A program made the translations under genes and the position numbers. 64,000 nucleotides of DNA from assembly GCF_028369105.1 (NCBI RefSeq), contig NZ_JAQNDO010000001.1, forward strand, positions 11,316,501 through 11,380,500, in the 5' to 3' direction. Source of the stretch: Polyangium mundeleinium. Lineage in GTDB: Bacteria; Myxococcota_A; Polyangia; Polyangiales; Polyangiaceae. Within the stretch, counting starts at the first letter, position 1; each line of letters opens with the position of its first letter. Shown piece after piece: positions 35,236 to 41,565 of this stretch. Under the pieces are notes generated by a model. That model was not told where the DNA came from and ran no database searches. It saw only the letters and a list, made by a program, of their open reading frames with translations.

Positions 35236-37326
35236 CTAGAACCGGGAGACGACCTCGAGCCGCGCGCCCTCGAAGGGCGGGAAGAGGCGGCAGACGCCGG
35301 AGACGCAGCGGATCGCGCCGCGCCGCTGCCCGACGAAGAGGTTCACGGTGTTCACGAGCCGCGAGGCCCACGTGTCCGTGCTCCCGGATCGGTACGTGAG
35401 GCCGCCGCTCAGGTAGTGGCAAAGCACGACCTTGAACTCGTCTGCACCGGCGAGCTCGGGCTGGCAGCCGGGGCGCGTCGAGTACTCGTAGCCGAAGACC
35501 GCCGAGAGGTGCGGCGACCAGTGGAGCGCCGTGTAGTTCTCGCCCTCGTTCCACACCCGACCGTGCGTCGCGGGCAGGTAGCGGTTGCGATGAAACCCTT
35601 GGAGCTGCAACGAAAACGGGCCCTTGATGTGCTTGACGAGGTCGTAGCGGATGTAGCCCTCGTAATAGAGGACGTCCGTCTCGCCCGGCGCCCGCGTGCC
35701 GAGCGTGGGCACCGCGCGCTCCGCGATACGCGCTCCGATCCAGGCGCGCGCGTGCGACTTGCCCTGCTCGCGGCTCATGTCGATGCCCACGGCCGTGTCC
35801 CACGTGTCCGTGCGGAACTGGTCGTCCATCGACTGGCAGAGGTCGTTCGTGGGCACCTCCGTCCAGCTCCGGTAACGACCGAGCCAGCCGTACACCGACG
35901 TGTGCTCGTCGTACTTGAAGTTCGCGGTCGCGCGGCCGCCGGTCATGCACACGTTCGGCGACTCGATCGGCTCGATGTAAATCGGCTCCGCGGTCGGCGG
36001 CGCGCTGTAGGCGACGACGCTGTACTCGGGGGCGCTATAGCCAGGCGTCGTCACGTCGATGTTCGAACCGAGTGGGAAGAATTTTCGGTTGTGTTTGCCC
36101 TCCAAGGAAAGCTGGAGCTTTCCGAGGCCGAAGTTCGCGTTCGCGTACACCGCGTACCCCGACACGTCCGCTTGCCGCTCCGTCGCCGTGCCTTGCGCGT
36201 CGATCGCGCCCACGTGCCCGTCGCGGAGTTGCTGCCCCGCGACCTCCACGTAGAGGTCGCCGATCCCCGCGATCGACGGCACGTTCACCGATCCGCTGAA
36301 CGTCCGAATCTGATTGTGCGAGCGGCCTCCGGGCAGGACCGTGAACTCGGGGAACTGCGCGTAGCAGTGATCCACGCACGTCGAATCGCCCGTGGCGCAG
36401 GCGTTCCTGCACGCGAGGTTCTCCTCGGTGAAGGATTTGCGCACCAGCACCGACGCGTTCGCGGCGAACTGGATGGCGTCGATCCCGCCTTCGACGCGGC
36501 CGCCGAAGATCGTGTCCTCGAGGTAACTCGGCCTCGGCTCGGCGACGATCGGCTGCCCGTTGATGGCGTACGTCGTCGCGGGCTTCGCGTCCGGAAAGCC
36601 GAAAAACAAGGGGGATCCTGCGCCGTGCAGACGCCGACCGCTCACCTCGTCGAAGCGCAGCGGGTTCATCTGTCCCGCGAGCAGCGTGGCGCCGATCCGC
36701 GCCGGCCCGAGCTTCTTGTCGAAGACGACCTTCCCACCGCGGATCGTCGTGTCGATCGCGAGTTCGTCGATCTTGCGCACGCTGAGCACGAGGCCGCGGC
36801 CGAGCTGCGCGTAGAAATCGCCGATCGTGATGTCTAGGCCCGGCTGGTTGTATCCGACGTAGAGTTTGGCCGGGTACACGCTGTTCAAGAACCGCGTGTT
36901 CAGCTCGTTGTAGAAGCGGTTCGCATAGTCGATCGTCTGCGGGACCTGGGCGTTCGGATCCGCCTGCTTTACCGCGTCGATCTGGCGCTGCGCGATCACC
37001 TGCGCCTCGGTCCGCTTCGTCGTCAGGTAGTAGAGCGCCGAGTCGAGGCGCACGCCGACGCGGAAGCGCCACCACGTCGCCTGCACGTTCAGGCGGTTGA
37101 TCCACTCGCCGTAGTCGTCGTCGACGATCGGCCGCGGGTTGAACGCCCTTGGATCGTGGTTGCGGTTGTCCCAGCGATAGTCGACGACCGTGGTGTTGGT
37201 GACGTCGAGCCCGATCGGCTCACCTGCCGGCCCGGGCAAGTCGAGCGCGCTCGCGGCGGGCGCGATCGCGAGGCTTCCGAGGGTGACGGCCAGCGCAGCA
37301 GCGGCGCGACGCGAGGAAGATCTCAC
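35236..37326 (-). CDS. Predicted outer-membrane beta-barrel protein (DUF6029-like)
   Basis: 696 residues from GTG at 37326, with a clean signal peptide cleaved after A-S-A (about 27). The mature part alternates polar and hydrophobic residues in short strands, is rich in Tyr, Trp and Gly, and ends in F, as outer-membrane barrels do. A loop with four clustered cysteines lies near 307-323 (C-x3-C-x6-C-x3-C). This looks like the DUF6029 family of uncharacterised barrels (inference). The next genes on the strand encode two thioredoxin-fold lipoproteins. Confidence 0.72.
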   Translation of the reverse strand: MRSSSRRAAAALAVTLGSLAIAPAASALDLPGPAGEPIGLDVTNTTVVDYRWDNRNHDPRAFNPRPIVDDDYGEWINRLNVQATWWRFRVGVRLDSALYYLTTKRTEAQVIAQRQIDAVKQADPNAQVPQTIDYANRFYNELNTRFLNSVYPAKLYVGYNQPGLDITIGDFYAQLGRGLVLSVRKIDELAIDTTIRGGKVVFDKKLGPARIGATLLAGQMNPLRFDEVSGRRLHGAGSPLFFGFPDAKPATTYAINGQPIVAEPRPSYLEDTIFGGRVEGGIDAIQFAANASVLVRKSFTEENLACRNACATGDSTCVDHCYAQFPEFTVLPGGRSHNQIRTFSGSVNVPSIAGIGDLYVEVAGQQLRDGHVGAIDAQGTATERQADVSGYAVYANANFGLGKLQLSLEGKHNRKFFPLGSNIDVTTPGYSAPEYSVVAYSAPPTAEPIYIEPIESPNVCMTGGRATANFKYDEHTSVYGWLGRYRSWTEVPTNDLCQSMDDQFRTDTWDTAVGIDMSREQGKSHARAWIGARIAERAVPTLGTRAPGETDVLYYEGYIRYDLVKHIKGPFSLQLQGFHRNRYLPATHGRVWNEGENYTALHWSPHLSAVFGYEYSTRPGCQPELAGADEFKVVLCHYLSGGLTYRSGSTDTWASRLVNTVNLFVGQRRGAIRCVSGVCRLFPPFEGARLEVVSRF

Positions 37327-37360
37327 GCGCGCCTTCTACCATGACGCGCGCGGCGTCCGA

Positions 37361-37888
37361 TCACTCCGCGAGGGCCTTCTCGACCTCGACAGCGAGGGTT
37401 TTCTCGTCACCCGCGGTGTATCCACCACGCTTGTGCATGATCGAACCGTCCTTGCTGATCAGCACCGTGAAGGGCAGCTCGCGCTTCGGATTGTAGCGGG
37501 CCGTCACCACGGTCTCCTCGTCGAGCAGCACGGGGAAGACCATGTCCTTCGAGCGCACCACGCTGCTCACCTGCGCGCGCGACTCCGGCCCGTCGGCGGA
37601 GACGGCGAGCACGACGAAGCCGCGATCCTTGTGCTTTTTGTAAAGGTCGACGAGGTGCGGCATCTCGATCATGCAGGGGTCGCAGGTGGTCGACCAGAAG
37701 TCGATGAGCACCACGCTGTTCCCCTTGTAGTCGGAGAGCCGGACCTGCTTGCCGTCGAGCGACGGCAGCGTGAAGTCGGGTGCCGTCGCGCCGCCGCCGG
37801 CCTTCGCGGAGGGCATTTCGCCGCCACACGAGCTGAGGAGAAGGCCGGCGAGCGCGGCGCCGAGGACGTGAGCTTTTTGCGCGTTCAT
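37361..37888 (-). CDS. TlpA-like thioredoxin-fold lipoprotein, CDPC active site
   Basis: 175 residues from ATG at 37888. Lipobox LLSSC in the signal peptide, then a redoxin domain: 'PDFTLPSLDGKQVRLSDYKGN', active site W-S-T-T-C-D-P-C (about 70) and cis-Pro region 'LPFTVLISKDG'. TlpA/ResA-like proteins reduce or isomerise disulfides in the envelope; the C-D-P-C dipeptide differs from the standard C-G-P-C and may shift redox potential. Separated by 58 bp from a second thioredoxin-fold gene upstream. Confidence 0.88.
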   Translation of the reverse strand: MNAQKAHVLGAALAGLLLSSCGGEMPSAKAGGGATAPDFTLPSLDGKQVRLSDYKGNSVVLIDFWSTTCDPCMIEMPHLVDLYKKHKDRGFVVLAVSADGPESRAQVSSVVRSKDMVFPVLLDEETVVTARYNPKRELPFTVLISKDGSIMHKRGGYTAGDEKTLAVEVEKALAE

Positions 37889-37946
37889 CCTCGCATCATG
37901 CCGCAAAGGAGGAGGGGCGGCACGCGCGCAAAAGCAGGCGAGAGGG

Positions 37947-38657
37947 CTACAACGTCCCTGCGATGACCTTCTCGAAGGTCTTCCAGTACGTCGCCGGAGG
38001 CGGACCGGCGTACGTGTGAACGATCGCCATCGTCCGCGTGTCGATGATGATGTTCGCCGGGAACGAATCGCTCTCCCAGAGAGCCGCGAGCTTGCCGCCC
38101 GGATCGGTCACCGACGGGTAGTCGATGGCGAACTTCTTCACCCACTTCGTCAGGTCTTCGGGCGTCGCCGGCGAACCGGAGATTCCCTCCGCGAGCGCGA
38201 GAAGGAACTCGCCGCCAATCGGGTTGTACTCCGCGCGCAGGCCCGGGAGGACCTCGGCCGCCTCGTACTGGCAAGGGCCGCACCACGAAGCGGAGATGAT
38301 GATCGCGAGCGCCTTCGGCTTCGGCGTGCCCGCGGGGAACACGGAGTTTTCCGGAAAAACCCCGTCGCCCGTCGGATTGTAGAACTCCGCAAAGGAGATG
38401 AATCGCACGCCGTCGCCGATCTTTTCCTTCGCGTTCGGAAAACCGATGAGCTCGTAATTCTGCGCTATCGAGCCCTTGCTGATGCCGAAGGGACCCGCGG
38501 GATACGGGAGCGCCCACGATCCACGCGGAAGTTGCCCCGTTTGATCCGGGAACCCTGGTGTCACGTTGCCATCGCCCTCGTCACTGCCGCAGCCGATCAA
38601 ACCGAAAGCTGCCGTCAGACCGAGAACCAAGCACCGAAAGAGCACGTCGTTTCGCAT
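37947..38657 (-). CDS. Thioredoxin-fold lipoprotein, CGPC active site
   Basis: 236 residues from ATG at 38657; a longer frame upstream to 39047 has no ribosome-binding site and its content is not protein-like. Lipobox GLIGC (about 22). A ~90-residue N-terminal extension precedes the redoxin core with active site S-A-S-W-C-G-P-C (about 134), 'YPSVTDPGGKLAALWES' and the cis-Pro-containing strand 'FPANIIIDTRTM'. Likely an envelope thiol-disulfide oxidoreductase, paired with the downstream CDPC protein and divergent from the Cys-rich lipoprotein gene at 38845. Confidence 0.87.
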   Translation of the reverse strand: MRNDVLFRCLVLGLTAAFGLIGCGSDEGDGNVTPGFPDQTGQLPRGSWALPYPAGPFGISKGSIAQNYELIGFPNAKEKIGDGVRFISFAEFYNPTGDGVFPENSVFPAGTPKPKALAIIISASWCGPCQYEAAEVLPGLRAEYNPIGGEFLLALAEGISGSPATPEDLTKWVKKFAIDYPSVTDPGGKLAALWESDSFPANIIIDTRTMAIVHTYAGPPPATYWKTFEKVIAGTL

Positions 38658-38844
38658 GATGCCACCGCGCCTGGAATGAGGTAGGTCGGAATGGTCCTCG
38701 CGGGGGTTCGGGGCGTCAAGCGCCCTCCTTGCAAAAGGCCTCGCACGGACCGGATCCGTACCCAGGCAAGATGCGTGGAACACGGCACCGTCCCATGCAT
38801 ACCCACACCCGCGGAGGGACGGCCCTCCAAGGTTCGAGGCCATC

Positions 38845-40170
38845 ATGCAGCATTCTCCTGTTCTCCGTCCCCGGCAGCCGCGCCTTCGTTTTGCCGCCGC
38901 CCTCTCGCTCCTCTCACTCCTTTTTGGTGGCGCGCTCGGCGCCTGCTCCGAGGAGGAGGCGGTGCCGTTCTGCTTCGGCGGCTTCGTCACCGCGGACGGC
39001 AAATGCGAGGGGAAGTGCACCCCCGACAAGTGCCTACCCGGCAACACGTGCGTGGAGAACCGCTGCGTCCTCGAGTGCGCCGGTCACGCCGATTGCCTCG
39101 CGGACGGCACGCAGGACTGCACGCCCGCGGTCGAGGACGACACGAAGCGTGAAATGTTCGCCTGCCAGCCGAACGAGAAGCCCTTCGGCTTCGGCTTCAA
39201 GTGCCCCTTCGGCGACGAGTGCAGCAAGACCCTCTCCTGCCCGCAGACGGGGTCGCCCTGCTTCCTCGATCAGTGCGGCGGCGCGCCCGACACCTGCAAG
39301 CTCGACGAGACCTACTGCTACGGACGTGCAAACTGTCTCGTCGGCAAATGCCCCGACAACACGCCCTGCACGGTGCTCGCGTGCGCGCCGGGCGAGTGCA
39401 CGGCGCCGCTCTCCTGCCTCTCGGCCGCCGAGGGTGATGCCGATGCTTTCTGCACCAAGCAAGATTGCCAGAGCGACGCCGAGTGCCCCGGCGGGTTCTA
39501 CTGCGGCACGACCCGCGAGGCGCGCGCGCTCTGCGGCAGCATGAACCCCGCCAAGGGCAACAACGGCCTCTGCGGTCAGTCGAACGACCCGTGCATCGAG
39601 CCGAGCTCGCTCGGGCAGGGCAACACGATGTTCGAAGGCCAGCTCTGTGTACTCCGGAAGACGTGCGTCCAGCGCGACACGTGCGCCCCGTGCAACACTG
39701 ATCTGGACTGTTCACAGATCCCGAACAGCCACTGCATCTCGCTCCCGAACGACACCACGAAGCGCTGCGCCTCCGAGTGCGTGAAGGACTCCGACTGCGG
39801 ACGCTCGTTCGAGTGCAAGCCCGTGAGCGACGCCGCTCCGGACGGACCGAAGGCGTGCTTCCACCGCTTCGGCGCCTGCGTCGGCGAGGGCAAATACTGC
39901 GAGCCCTGCGTGACTGACGAGGACTGCGGCCCGCTCACCGGCCGCTCCGTTTGCATCCAGGCCACCGACGGCAGCCGCGGCTGCGTCGATCTCAGCACGT
40001 CCGGCGGGGCCTGCATGTCGAACAACGACTGCCCGCTCTCGCCGAGCGGCAAGCACGCCGAGTGCGACCTCAACCCGGGCTCGCAGAACTACCAGAAGTG
40101 CCAGCTCTTCCCCTACACGCTCGCCAACCCCGCGAACCCGAACCAGGGCGGCGAGGCGAGCTGCTGGTAA
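38845..40170 (+). CDS. Cysteine-rich lipoprotein (about 53 cysteines)
   Basis: 441 residues. Signal peptide with lipobox L-G-A-C (about 31-34). By hand count there are about 53 cysteines (12% of residues), many in motifs of the kind C-x2-5-D-x-D-C (such as CVTDEDC, CVKDSDC, CMSNNDC), recurring every 30-50 residues. This spacing resembles the EGF-like or Dickkopf-like modules of myxobacterial surface lipoproteins. Probably a disulfide-stabilised outer-surface protein; function unknown. Its divergent neighbours are thioredoxin-fold lipoproteins. Confidence 0.82.
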   Translation: MQHSPVLRPRQPRLRFAAALSLLSLLFGGALGACSEEEAVPFCFGGFVTADGKCEGKCTPDKCLPGNTCVENRCVLECAGHADCLADGTQDCTPAVEDDTKREMFACQPNEKPFGFGFKCPFGDECSKTLSCPQTGSPCFLDQCGGAPDTCKLDETYCYGRANCLVGKCPDNTPCTVLACAPGECTAPLSCLSAAEGDADAFCTKQDCQSDAECPGGFYCGTTREARALCGSMNPAKGNNGLCGQSNDPCIEPSSLGQGNTMFEGQLCVLRKTCVQRDTCAPCNTDLDCSQIPNSHCISLPNDTTKRCASECVKDSDCGRSFECKPVSDAAPDGPKACFHRFGACVGEGKYCEPCVTDEDCGPLTGRSVCIQATDGSRGCVDLSTSGGACMSNNDCPLSPSGKHAECDLNPGSQNYQKCQLFPYTLANPANPNQGGEASCW

Positions 40171-40205
40171 CAGAAGCTGGTCTCTTCCGGTCTCAATCGA
40201 TCCTC

Positions 40206-40240
40206 GCCGCGCAAAAACTTTCGCCGCGCGCGGCACGTTT
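40206..40240 (+). terminator. Possible terminator after the Cys-rich lipoprotein
   Basis: GCCGCGC (40206-40212) pairs with GCGCGGC (40228-40234), followed by ACGTTTCTTTC. The loop is long (15 nt) and a competing palindrome lies inside it, so confidence is moderate. Confidence 0.4.
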
Positions 40241-40386
40241 CTTTCGCACCCTCCCCCCCGTGATCCGGGGATTCCGCGAGGGCCCCGGGGATGGACGGGA
40301 GGGTGCTCACGTCGCACTTCGCATGGCGCAGAAGGTGCACGTGCGCTTCAACGTACCCATCACTTCTTCAACAAGGAGAGCTTCGC

Positions 40387-41565
40387 ATGTCGCAGAAAAA
40401 CAAGTGGATCCGCCTCGTCGCCGCACCCGCCTTCGTGCTCGGAGTTGGCCTCACCGCCGGCCTCGGTTGCAGCGACATCGCCGACATCGCCGAGGGTTGT
40501 GACGAGTTCCGCGCCGACGCGCAGTGGGGCGCGAACCTCGACATCGACTTCCGCGTCAAGTCGTTCATGGGCGCCTCGGGCGCGTTCATCACGCTCGCCG
40601 ATCAGATGATCGCCGACGTCACCGCGGCCTGCCAGGGCATCGCCAAGGCGACGAATCGCGACGAATCGAAGTGGTCGAAGCTCGAGGGCGCCGCGCGCCT
40701 CGAGGCCGTGTGCAAGGAGGCGGAGCTCGGCTTCGACGAGGTGATCAAGGCCAACGCGAACGTGGAGCTCGTCGCGCTCGTCGAGGGCGGCAAGTGCGAG
40801 GCGAGCCTCGACGCGTCCGCCGAGTGCAACGCGCGCTGCGACGTGAGCGGCCAGTGCACGCCGGCGCAGCTCGAAGCCAAGTGCGAGCCGGGCAAGCTCG
40901 CGGGCACGTGCAAGGCCGAGTGCAAGGGCGCCTGTACGGCCGACGTCGGCGCCACGGTCGAGTGCCGCGGCTCGTGCAGCGCCGTCTGCAACGGCAAGTG
41001 CGACGGCCAGTGCTCCTCGGGCGACTCGAACAACTGCAACGGCCGCTGCGACGGCACGTGCGAGGGTACCTGCTCGGGCGCGTGCGAGCTCGAAGCCAAC
41101 GCCGCTGTGCAGTGCGACGGCACCTGCCGCGGCGAGTGCTCCGTCGAGTTCGAGGCCCCGCACTGCGAGGGCAAAATCACGCCGCCCGAGTGCGAGCTCG
41201 ACGCCGACTGCCAGGCGAGCTGCAACGCGCAGGTCCAGGCGAATGCGTCGTGCACGCCGCCCAAGGTCACGATCGAGCTCGCGGGCGGCGCCACCGCCGA
41301 CCTCGAGGCGCTCGCGGCTGCGCTCGAGGAGCACCTGCCGAAGCTCATCGTCACCGGCATCGAGCGTGGTCAGGCCGCGCTCGACGCCGGCGAGGTCCTC
41401 GTCGAGGTCGGCGGGAACCTGGAGGGTGCGCTCACGTCGAGCGGCAAGGCCTTCGTCTGCGCCACGGAGGCGGCGAGGGCCTCGCTCAACGCGAGCGTCG
41501 AGGTGAAGGTCTCCGTCGAGGCCAGCGCCAGCATCGGCGGCAAGGCTGCCGGCTCCGTCCAGTGA
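40387..41565 (+). CDS. Cysteine-rich lipoprotein with C-x3-C periodic core
   Basis: 392 residues from ATG at 40387, supported by an AAGGAGAG ribosome-binding site. Lipobox G-L-G-C (about 25-28). About 31 cysteines, most in residues 135-290, where runs of C-x3-C (such as CNGKCDGQC and CNGRCDGTC) repeat with a period of four, giving a one-sided Cys array. Helical, Ala-rich blocks flank it on both sides (about 40-130 and 300-392). No recognised function; strongly myxobacterial in style. A textbook terminator follows. Confidence 0.8.
   Translation: MSQKNKWIRLVAAPAFVLGVGLTAGLGCSDIADIAEGCDEFRADAQWGANLDIDFRVKSFMGASGAFITLADQMIADVTAACQGIAKATNRDESKWSKLEGAARLEAVCKEAELGFDEVIKANANVELVALVEGGKCEASLDASAECNARCDVSGQCTPAQLEAKCEPGKLAGTCKAECKGACTADVGATVECRGSCSAVCNGKCDGQCSSGDSNNCNGRCDGTCEGTCSGACELEANAAVQCDGTCRGECSVEFEAPHCEGKITPPECELDADCQASCNAQVQANASCTPPKVTIELAGGATADLEALAAALEEHLPKLIVTGIERGQAALDAGEVLVEVGGNLEGALTSSGKAFVCATEAARASLNASVEVKVSVEASASIGGKAAGSVQ

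Follow-up and report, generated by a model that had tools for sequence, protein, structure and literature searches.

A DUF6029 outer-membrane barrel with neighbouring redoxins: a possible unrecognised disulfide system of the outer membrane

The locus in Polyangium mundeleinium

The genes considered here lie in a stretch of 64,000 nucleotides from Polyangium mundeleinium (contig NZ_JAQNDO010000001.1, positions 11,316,501 to 11,380,500 of the forward strand), which we call the window. They are five in number and code for an outer-membrane β-barrel of the family DUF6029, two thioredoxin-fold lipoproteins (RDX1 and RDX2) and two cysteine-rich lipoproteins (CYS53 and CYS31); together they may point to a disulfide system of the outer membrane that has so far gone unrecognised. 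RDX2 (37947-38657), RDX1 (37361-37906) and the barrel gene (35236-37326) are likely to form an operon on the minus strand, with short gaps between the genes, 34 bp in the case of RDX1 and the barrel. CYS53 (38845-40170, plus strand) is divergent from RDX2, and CYS31 (40387-41565, plus strand) comes after it. A first-pass annotation of the DNA had described two CxxC redoxin lipoproteins with CDPC and CGPC sites, located between a barrel with a four-cysteine loop and lipoproteins with about 53 and 31 cysteines; all five genes are found where it placed them.

The barrel has 696 amino acids, ten of them cysteines; a GTG is listed as its start and a later start is possible. It matches DUF6029 (Pfam PF19494) at 49.8 bits, above the cut-off of 27, and a Bacteroidota relative scores 396.5 against the same family. 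Alignment places one cysteine pair in the hairpin before the last strand (codons C674-G687, CVSGVCRLFPPFEG, 35266-35307, minus strand) and a second one at codons C460 to C497 (35836-35949, minus strand; alignment of 114 barrels). The four-cysteine loop, read from the sequence, is a twin CX3C formed by C306, C310, C317 and C321 with the spacing C-x3-C-x6-C-x3-C (36364-36411, minus strand). An AlphaFold2 model of the barrel is of middling confidence (mean predicted local distance difference test score, pLDDT, 64.5; predicted template modelling score 0.68); it has about 24 strands by a manual count from the strand list, and the twin CX3C, which lies in a loop of the barrel, is partly made up of short helices in it.

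RDX1 is a ResA/TlpA-like redoxin with the lipobox LSSC, the likely start being an ATG at 37888, and its active site CDPC (WSTTCDPC) is at 37673-37684 on the minus strand. It matches AhpC-TSA at 90.9 bits (cut-off 26) with the CxxC present, and its best matches in the PDB are ResA structures (4nmu, E 1.9e-21). The ResA family is known from cytochrome c maturation. RDX1 scores below the curated cut-off for ResA (NF002854), 107.8 against 170 bits. A midpoint-rooted tree was made from 73 redoxins, the paralogs being taken from the own genome only (12 of 13). In this tree 42 barrel-linked redoxins of several phyla, RDX1 included, group apart from the 12 own-genome paralogs, with a support for the split (84/87) under the mark which the tool sets for firm branches. 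The exceptions are the Sumerlaeota-type set together with the Fibrobacteres fusion, which falls outside the barrel-linked group, and an additional TlpA from beside a barrel, which joins a paralog. A placement of the redoxins with cytochrome c maturation was raised at the first pass: RDX1 is ResA-like, yet it is under the ResA cut-off and its grouping, not a firm one, is with the redoxins found next to barrels.

RDX2 (minus strand, lipobox LIGC) was recognised from motifs and profile kinship, and is on its sequence best described as a more distant member of the thioredoxin-fold lipoproteins. It is below the AhpC-TSA cut-off (17.8 against 26 bits), has a PDB thioredoxin-family match at E 8.4e-4, is related to RDX1 by profile comparison (hhalign 99.7%) and has no match to Omp28 (PF11551) up to E 1. 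Its active site CGPC (SASWCGPC, 38271-38282, minus strand) is seen both in the sequence and in the alignment: the lipobox cysteine, the WCxxC and a proline at the expected cis-Pro place are invariant in the family (20/20 rows, alignment A4). Five other loci (L034, L035, L036, L048, L057) have near the barrel a protein of about 600 amino acids with nine cysteines which is partly RDX2-like.

CYS53 has 53 cysteines and the lipobox LGAC. CYS31, with the lipobox GLGC, has 31 cysteines from the start at 40387 and 33 from an earlier start at 40291; it is probably peripheral to the group. Single-sequence searches of the own genome (13.25 Mb) found no second copy of CYS53 or of the barrel, and other matches to RDX2 were weak only (the next at E 2.3e-6), while the RDX2 profile matches five places with E-values of at most 1e-6. 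RDX1 has 13 TlpA-like paralogs in this genome.

Conservation of the redoxin-barrel pair and of the barrel cysteines

Among 144 Polyangiales genomes the barrel is present in 88 by search with the window protein and in 89 by profile. Neighbourhoods were counted at 80 loci from 77 of the 88 matching genomes; the window's own locus is excluded, and five loci are from its genus. Outside the order 40 of 92 matching genomes were sampled, and 35 of these gave a called barrel longer than 350 amino acids. Loci L001-L030 and L111-L140 have short flanks and were left out of the neighbourhood counts. The genes were called with our own codon-bias script, and starts are for this reason approximate.

In Polyangiales a redoxin on the same strand is directly upstream of the barrel at 75 of the 80 loci; it is within four genes at one locus, absent at three, and one barrel is at a contig edge. 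At the 35 loci from outside the order the redoxin is directly upstream at 29, fused to the barrel at two, within four genes at two and absent at one, and one barrel is at an edge. The CxxC is found in 197 of the 200 redoxin-profile matches of at least 140 amino acids at the sampled loci, and the three matches lacking it are two peroxiredoxin-like proteins and one weak match. There are two recurrent layouts in Polyangiales, one in which CYS53 is divergent from RDX2-RDX1-barrel as in the window, the other a co-directional CysB-RDX2-barrel arrangement.

The cluster recurs in distant relatives, and the conserved neighbourhood for which the first-pass annotation asked is there; its core is the redoxin-barrel pair, with CYS31 and the four-cysteine loop at the periphery. 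The CYS31 family is found at 18 of 80 loci and was rejected as a core member, as was a HEAT lipoprotein (9 of 80 loci). The neighbours Mrp, S1 and DAGK resemble local synteny and were rejected as well. Chance clustering is rejected by the 75 of 80 loci, by the fusions and by joint absence. Some further genes follow the barrel at other loci: 14 Myxococcota loci outside the order have a related protein within two genes after it (L142:3787-4737 and 13 others; NADase_transloc and F5/8 type C domains were identified in the single member examined), and three loci have another related protein directly after it (L145:3599-5326, L170 and L174; the single member examined belongs to the radical SAM proteins).

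The barrel and RDX2 also tend to be present or absent together. With RDX2 counted as present at E under 1e-20, 87 of the 144 genomes have both, two have the barrel only (G009, G036), four RDX2 only (G008, G070, G120, G124) and 51 neither. The 13 genomes of the window's family without the barrel all lack the CYS53 family, and 11 of them lack RDX2 at the same threshold. Five genera (g4, g15, g18, g19, g20) contain both barrel-bearing and barrel-less genomes, so joint loss has probably happened more than once.

The cysteines of the barrel were compared in 114 aligned Myxococcota barrels which had been collected through similarity and not by motif. C674 and C679, the C-x-x-G-x-C pair of the last hairpin, are both present in 113 of them, and the sole exception (L105) is a gene running off a contig end. 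This pair was absent from the first-pass account, which named the four-cysteine loop instead. The loop is indeed present in the window barrel; as a core feature it had to be rejected, since the twin CX3C is found in only five of the 114 barrels, all of one genus. C460 and C497 are both present in 60 barrels and singly in none, and C621 and C636 both in ten and singly in none. Gain and loss of cysteines in pairs is the pattern expected of disulfides or dithiol pairs. In alignment A2, where 36 of the 37 rows were selected by the motif, C674, G677, C679, R680, P683, F685 and G687 are invariant; the residue after the second cysteine of the hairpin is mostly arginine and in some barrels lysine.

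To look beyond the phylum, we searched a single genome for each species with a DNA pattern of the hairpin motif, which gave at least 117 stretches. The stretches were selected by the motif, so conservation of the motif is circular here; linkage to a redoxin is not. A barrel was accepted when the motif was in an open frame together with a barrel-profile match. Among the matches listed, this test accepts a barrel in 106 of the 117 (73 among the first 80, 33 among the remaining 37) and rejects 11. At least five of the records (L254, L267, L282, L289, L295) are apparently genomes which are also in the other set. The barrels come from at least 12 phyla or candidate phyla: Bacteroidota, Ignavibacteriota, Sumerlaeota, Fibrobacteres, WOR-3, Eisenbacteria, Acidobacteriota, Fermentibacteria, Hydrothermus, KSB1, Delongbacteria and Myxococcota. 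Among the matches listed, 84 of the 106 barrels (61 of 73 and 23 of 33) have a redoxin or an Omp28 protein within 1 kb or are fused to a redoxin, and in 17 of the 22 partnerless ones the sequence on one side is shorter than 1 kb. Among the matches listed, ten of the twelve phyla have such a close or fused partner, the exceptions being WOR-3, where at one locus (L187) a redoxin is 2.8 kb upstream of the barrel, and Delongbacteria. Omp28 (PF11551) was confirmed by Pfam in all five proteins tested, each with a CxxC.

Natural fusions with the redoxin at the N-terminus of the barrel were found at four loci, L148 and L166 (Myxococcota, one family), L249 (Acidobacteriota) and L186 (Fibrobacteres). 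The Acidobacteriota fusion scores 30.6 bits against DUF6029, above the cut-off of 27. Its model has a confident redoxin domain of ResA fold (residues 27-172), a low-confidence linker and a barrel; a structural search with this model was filled by matches to the redoxin domain and is no test of the barrel. Beside this fusion lies a separate redoxin with the site DWCGPC (L249:2972-3856), which has a carboxypeptidase-regulatory-like match under the cut-off.

A redox model for the barrel

The model which we prefer, and to which we would give an even chance, is that of a barrel-directed thiol-disulfide module of the outer membrane which in Polyangiales also serves a cysteine-rich lipoprotein. RDX1, a ResA-like exported redoxin, and a thioredoxin-fold lipoprotein would make, break or reshuffle disulfides in the DUF6029 barrel. 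In Myxococcota this lipoprotein would be RDX2; its counterpart in Bacteroidota is probably Omp28. The main target would be the C-x-x-G-x-C-R pair of the last hairpin, beside the C-terminal strand from which barrel assembly normally starts. The redox state of this pair may be what permits the barrel to assemble or to gate, in the manner of the LptD disulfides. The lipoprotein redoxin of Polyangiales would additionally have taken on the cysteine-rich lipoprotein. Gene content, linkage of redoxin and barrel, their fusions and joint absence, the pairing of the cysteines and the conservation of the active sites are observed. Action of the redoxins on the barrel cysteines, the direction of electron flow and the role of the barrel are the parts of the model which we infer.

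A number of observations weigh against this model. At four of the 115 loci (L054, L081, L085, L159) the barrel has no redoxin in its vicinity, and five barrels of the motif scan (L187, L196, L284, L294, L296) have at least 1.8 kb of sequence on both sides and no partner within 1 kb among the matches listed. The association of barrel and RDX2 has a Fisher p of 1.4e-31, a value which ignores kinship, and the cut of 1e-20 for presence of RDX2 was picked after the gap in E-values had been seen. C674 and C679 form the tip of the last hairpin in the structural model, in a segment (residues 671-680) with a mean pLDDT of 57, which is middling confidence. The C-terminus of such barrels is as a rule periplasmic, so the tip with C674 and C679 would face outwards. 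If the model is right in this respect, a redoxin of the periplasm should have access to the hairpin only while the barrel is being assembled or via the lumen, unless a lipoprotein on the surface reaches it. Finally, adjacency of the genes could mean shared regulation only.

Disulfide chemistry is established in the periplasm and the inner membrane. Dsb enzymes are also needed by a few barrels, LptD among them, with DsbA being part of the oxidative maturation of LptD. LptD maturation is the closest mechanism: according to the available part of PMC10567701, LptD is an outer-membrane barrel in which disulfides control activation and lipoproteins (LptE/LptM) assist, and disulfides in such a barrel and lipoprotein help are also the likeness. 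The difference is that here a redoxin is encoded beside the barrel or fused to it, and that the window barrel has no Pfam match to LptD up to E 1. With ResA, TlpA and CcmG RDX1 shares the fold, the CxPC site and the family; it differs from these in being under the ResA cut-off, linked to a barrel and, at less than firm support, apart from the 12 paralogs of its own genome. Omp28 of Bacteroidota is likewise a CxxC lipoprotein beside a DUF6029 barrel; its kinship to RDX2 is weak (hhalign probability 32%, E 4.8e-4), and the comparison with RDX1 gives 72%. An Omp28-related Paraprevotella protein is described as recruiting trypsin, and the part of PMC9477747 available states no link to such a module; we keep this protein apart from the Omp28 of the module because of its predicted WD40 and Ig-like domains (PMC9477747, same part). 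In the open-access literature on DUF6029, Omp28, TlpA, outer-membrane thiol transfer and cysteine-rich myxobacterial lipoproteins, as far as a partial listing covers it, no description of the module was found.

Alternative models and significance

The first-pass annotation proposed that the redoxins may be dedicated folding enzymes of the cysteine-rich proteins. In its strict form, with the redoxins as oxidase or isomerase for cysteine-rich lipoproteins as main clients and the barrel as a neighbour or as their exporter, we regard this as unlikely, although part of the data speaks for it. Alignment brings CYS53 and CysB together in a single family, and 20 of its 22 invariant columns are cysteine (hhalign 94%, a comparison which for cysteine-rich proteins can mislead). 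The family, which occurs mostly in the window's class, is found in 72 of the 144 Polyangiales genomes, and only in genomes with RDX2 (72/72); the barrel is present in 71 of the 72. At least 73 of the 78 copies have RDX2 within 2.5 kb, a lower bound as the RDX2 places used for distances are part of the full list. The tie between the 53-cysteine family and a redoxin lipoprotein is borne out. It persists in three genomes whose barrel gene is on a different contig (G140, G121, G122), and nine rearranged loci (L045, L047, L050, L052, L086, L090, L093, L094, L096) have two copies of RDX2, one by the barrel and one by CYS53, which looks like a duplication of the redoxin to serve two clients.

As the whole story these clients are not supported, for the redoxin-barrel pair is more widespread than they are. 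Outside the order a cysteine-rich gene is within three genes of the barrel at five of 35 loci, pairs without one being the rule (30 of 35), and among the matches listed the CYS profiles match only two of the 117 motif-scan stretches (L282 and L295, both Myxococcota or Deltaproteobacteria). Cysteine-rich genes are moreover common in Polyangiales: they make up 72 of 459 genes near the barrel and 28 of 380 farther away, only about twice as common near it (p 2.4e-4). Near barrels outside the order they are rare, five of 187 genes against none of 109 farther away (p 0.16). CYS53 and CYS31 show no profile kinship (hhalign 1.7%); by Pfam CYS53 has no match and CYS31 only one to Bactofilin under the cut-off. 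Other large cysteine-rich proteins occur at some loci: L067, L068, L101 and L102 have one of about 780 amino acids with 106-108 cysteines directly after the barrel, and L103 has one of 1086 amino acids with 189 cysteines two genes past it.

A thiol relay across the outer membrane, for which there is a rather slim chance, would run from periplasmic RDX1 to the cysteine pair of the barrel, on to Omp28 or RDX2 at the surface and in Polyangiales to the cysteine-rich lipoprotein. DsbD and CcdA work in a comparable way in the inner membrane, where a cysteine pair of a membrane protein stands between two thioredoxin-fold partners; the likeness is one of analogy only, as the module has a β-barrel in the outer membrane. 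Such a relay would account for two redoxins per barrel and for a nearly invariant cysteine pair which probably faces outwards. By a crude pattern applied to L181-L260, 35 of 42 RDX1 matches have no lipobox-like site, and 31 of 37 Omp28 proteins are acidic at one or more of the positions +2 to +5 counted from the cysteine presumed to carry the lipid, although in at least five of the 37 the pattern mis-picked a cysteine of the signal peptide. Acidic residues at such places resemble the surface-export signals of Bacteroidota. It should be noted, however, that RDX1 of the window is itself a predicted lipoprotein, that the surface location of Omp28 and RDX2 is putative, that the barrel has one invariant cysteine pair only, and that nothing points to a route through its lumen.

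It is very unlikely, in our estimate, that DUF6029 is simply a porin for export of polysaccharide or protein, the hairpin pair being a structural disulfide and the redoxins merely co-regulated. In the open-access literature covered, DUF6029 is named in one paper, PMC9603273, the available part of which suggests a polysaccharide porin from the similarity of Wzi-like barrels to DUF6029; redoxins are unmentioned in that part. The closest solved folds to the window barrel are the chaperone-usher pores FimD/PapC (3ohn_B, Z 18.4, root mean square deviation 4.3, 375 residues aligned), which the model, with its roughly 24 strands, resembles more than the OccK porins (Z up to 15.5) or AlgE (14.5); template modelling scores by Foldseek are only about 0.35. 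These matches are a hint, not proof, that the modelled barrel may be a large pore. On the other hand the window barrel has no Usher match in Pfam up to E 1, where DUF6029 alone is reported, and Pfam on nine window genes gave no polysaccharide or pilus gene, chaperone or pilin, with no wider search made. The barrel profile, run against the sequences of solved structures, matched three RecA chains only, which we take as spurious. Co-regulation alone would hardly account for adjacency at 75 of 80 loci and for the four redoxin fusions.

Least probable of all is that the cysteine hairpin and the cysteine-rich lipoprotein bind a soft metal such as copper while the redoxins keep both reduced, a service which TlpA renders to Sco and CuA: RDX1 has a ResA/TlpA-type fold, TlpA-Sco and TlpA-cytochrome oxidase complexes (4txo, 4txv) are among the structure matches, and the gene for the iron-sulfur carrier Mrp/NUBPL, though cytosolic, is a neighbour at 20 loci including the window, but the barrel cysteines come and go pairwise and CYS53 resembles the cysteine repeat Myxo_Cys_RPT (TIGR04201) weakly, at 15.1 bits against a cut-off of 25.

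If the barrel-directed module is accepted, a barrel family found in at least 12 phyla, with a partner in ten of them and a nearly invariant cysteine pair, would amount to a dedicated redox system of the outer membrane. A domain of unknown function, DUF6029, becomes a testable system, and the cysteine-rich lipoproteins of Polyangiales gain a candidate enzyme. Should the relay turn out to be true, it would be a widespread outer-membrane counterpart of DsbD, carrying reducing or oxidising equivalents to extracellular disulfide proteins such as the cysteine-rich lipoproteins of Polyangiales.

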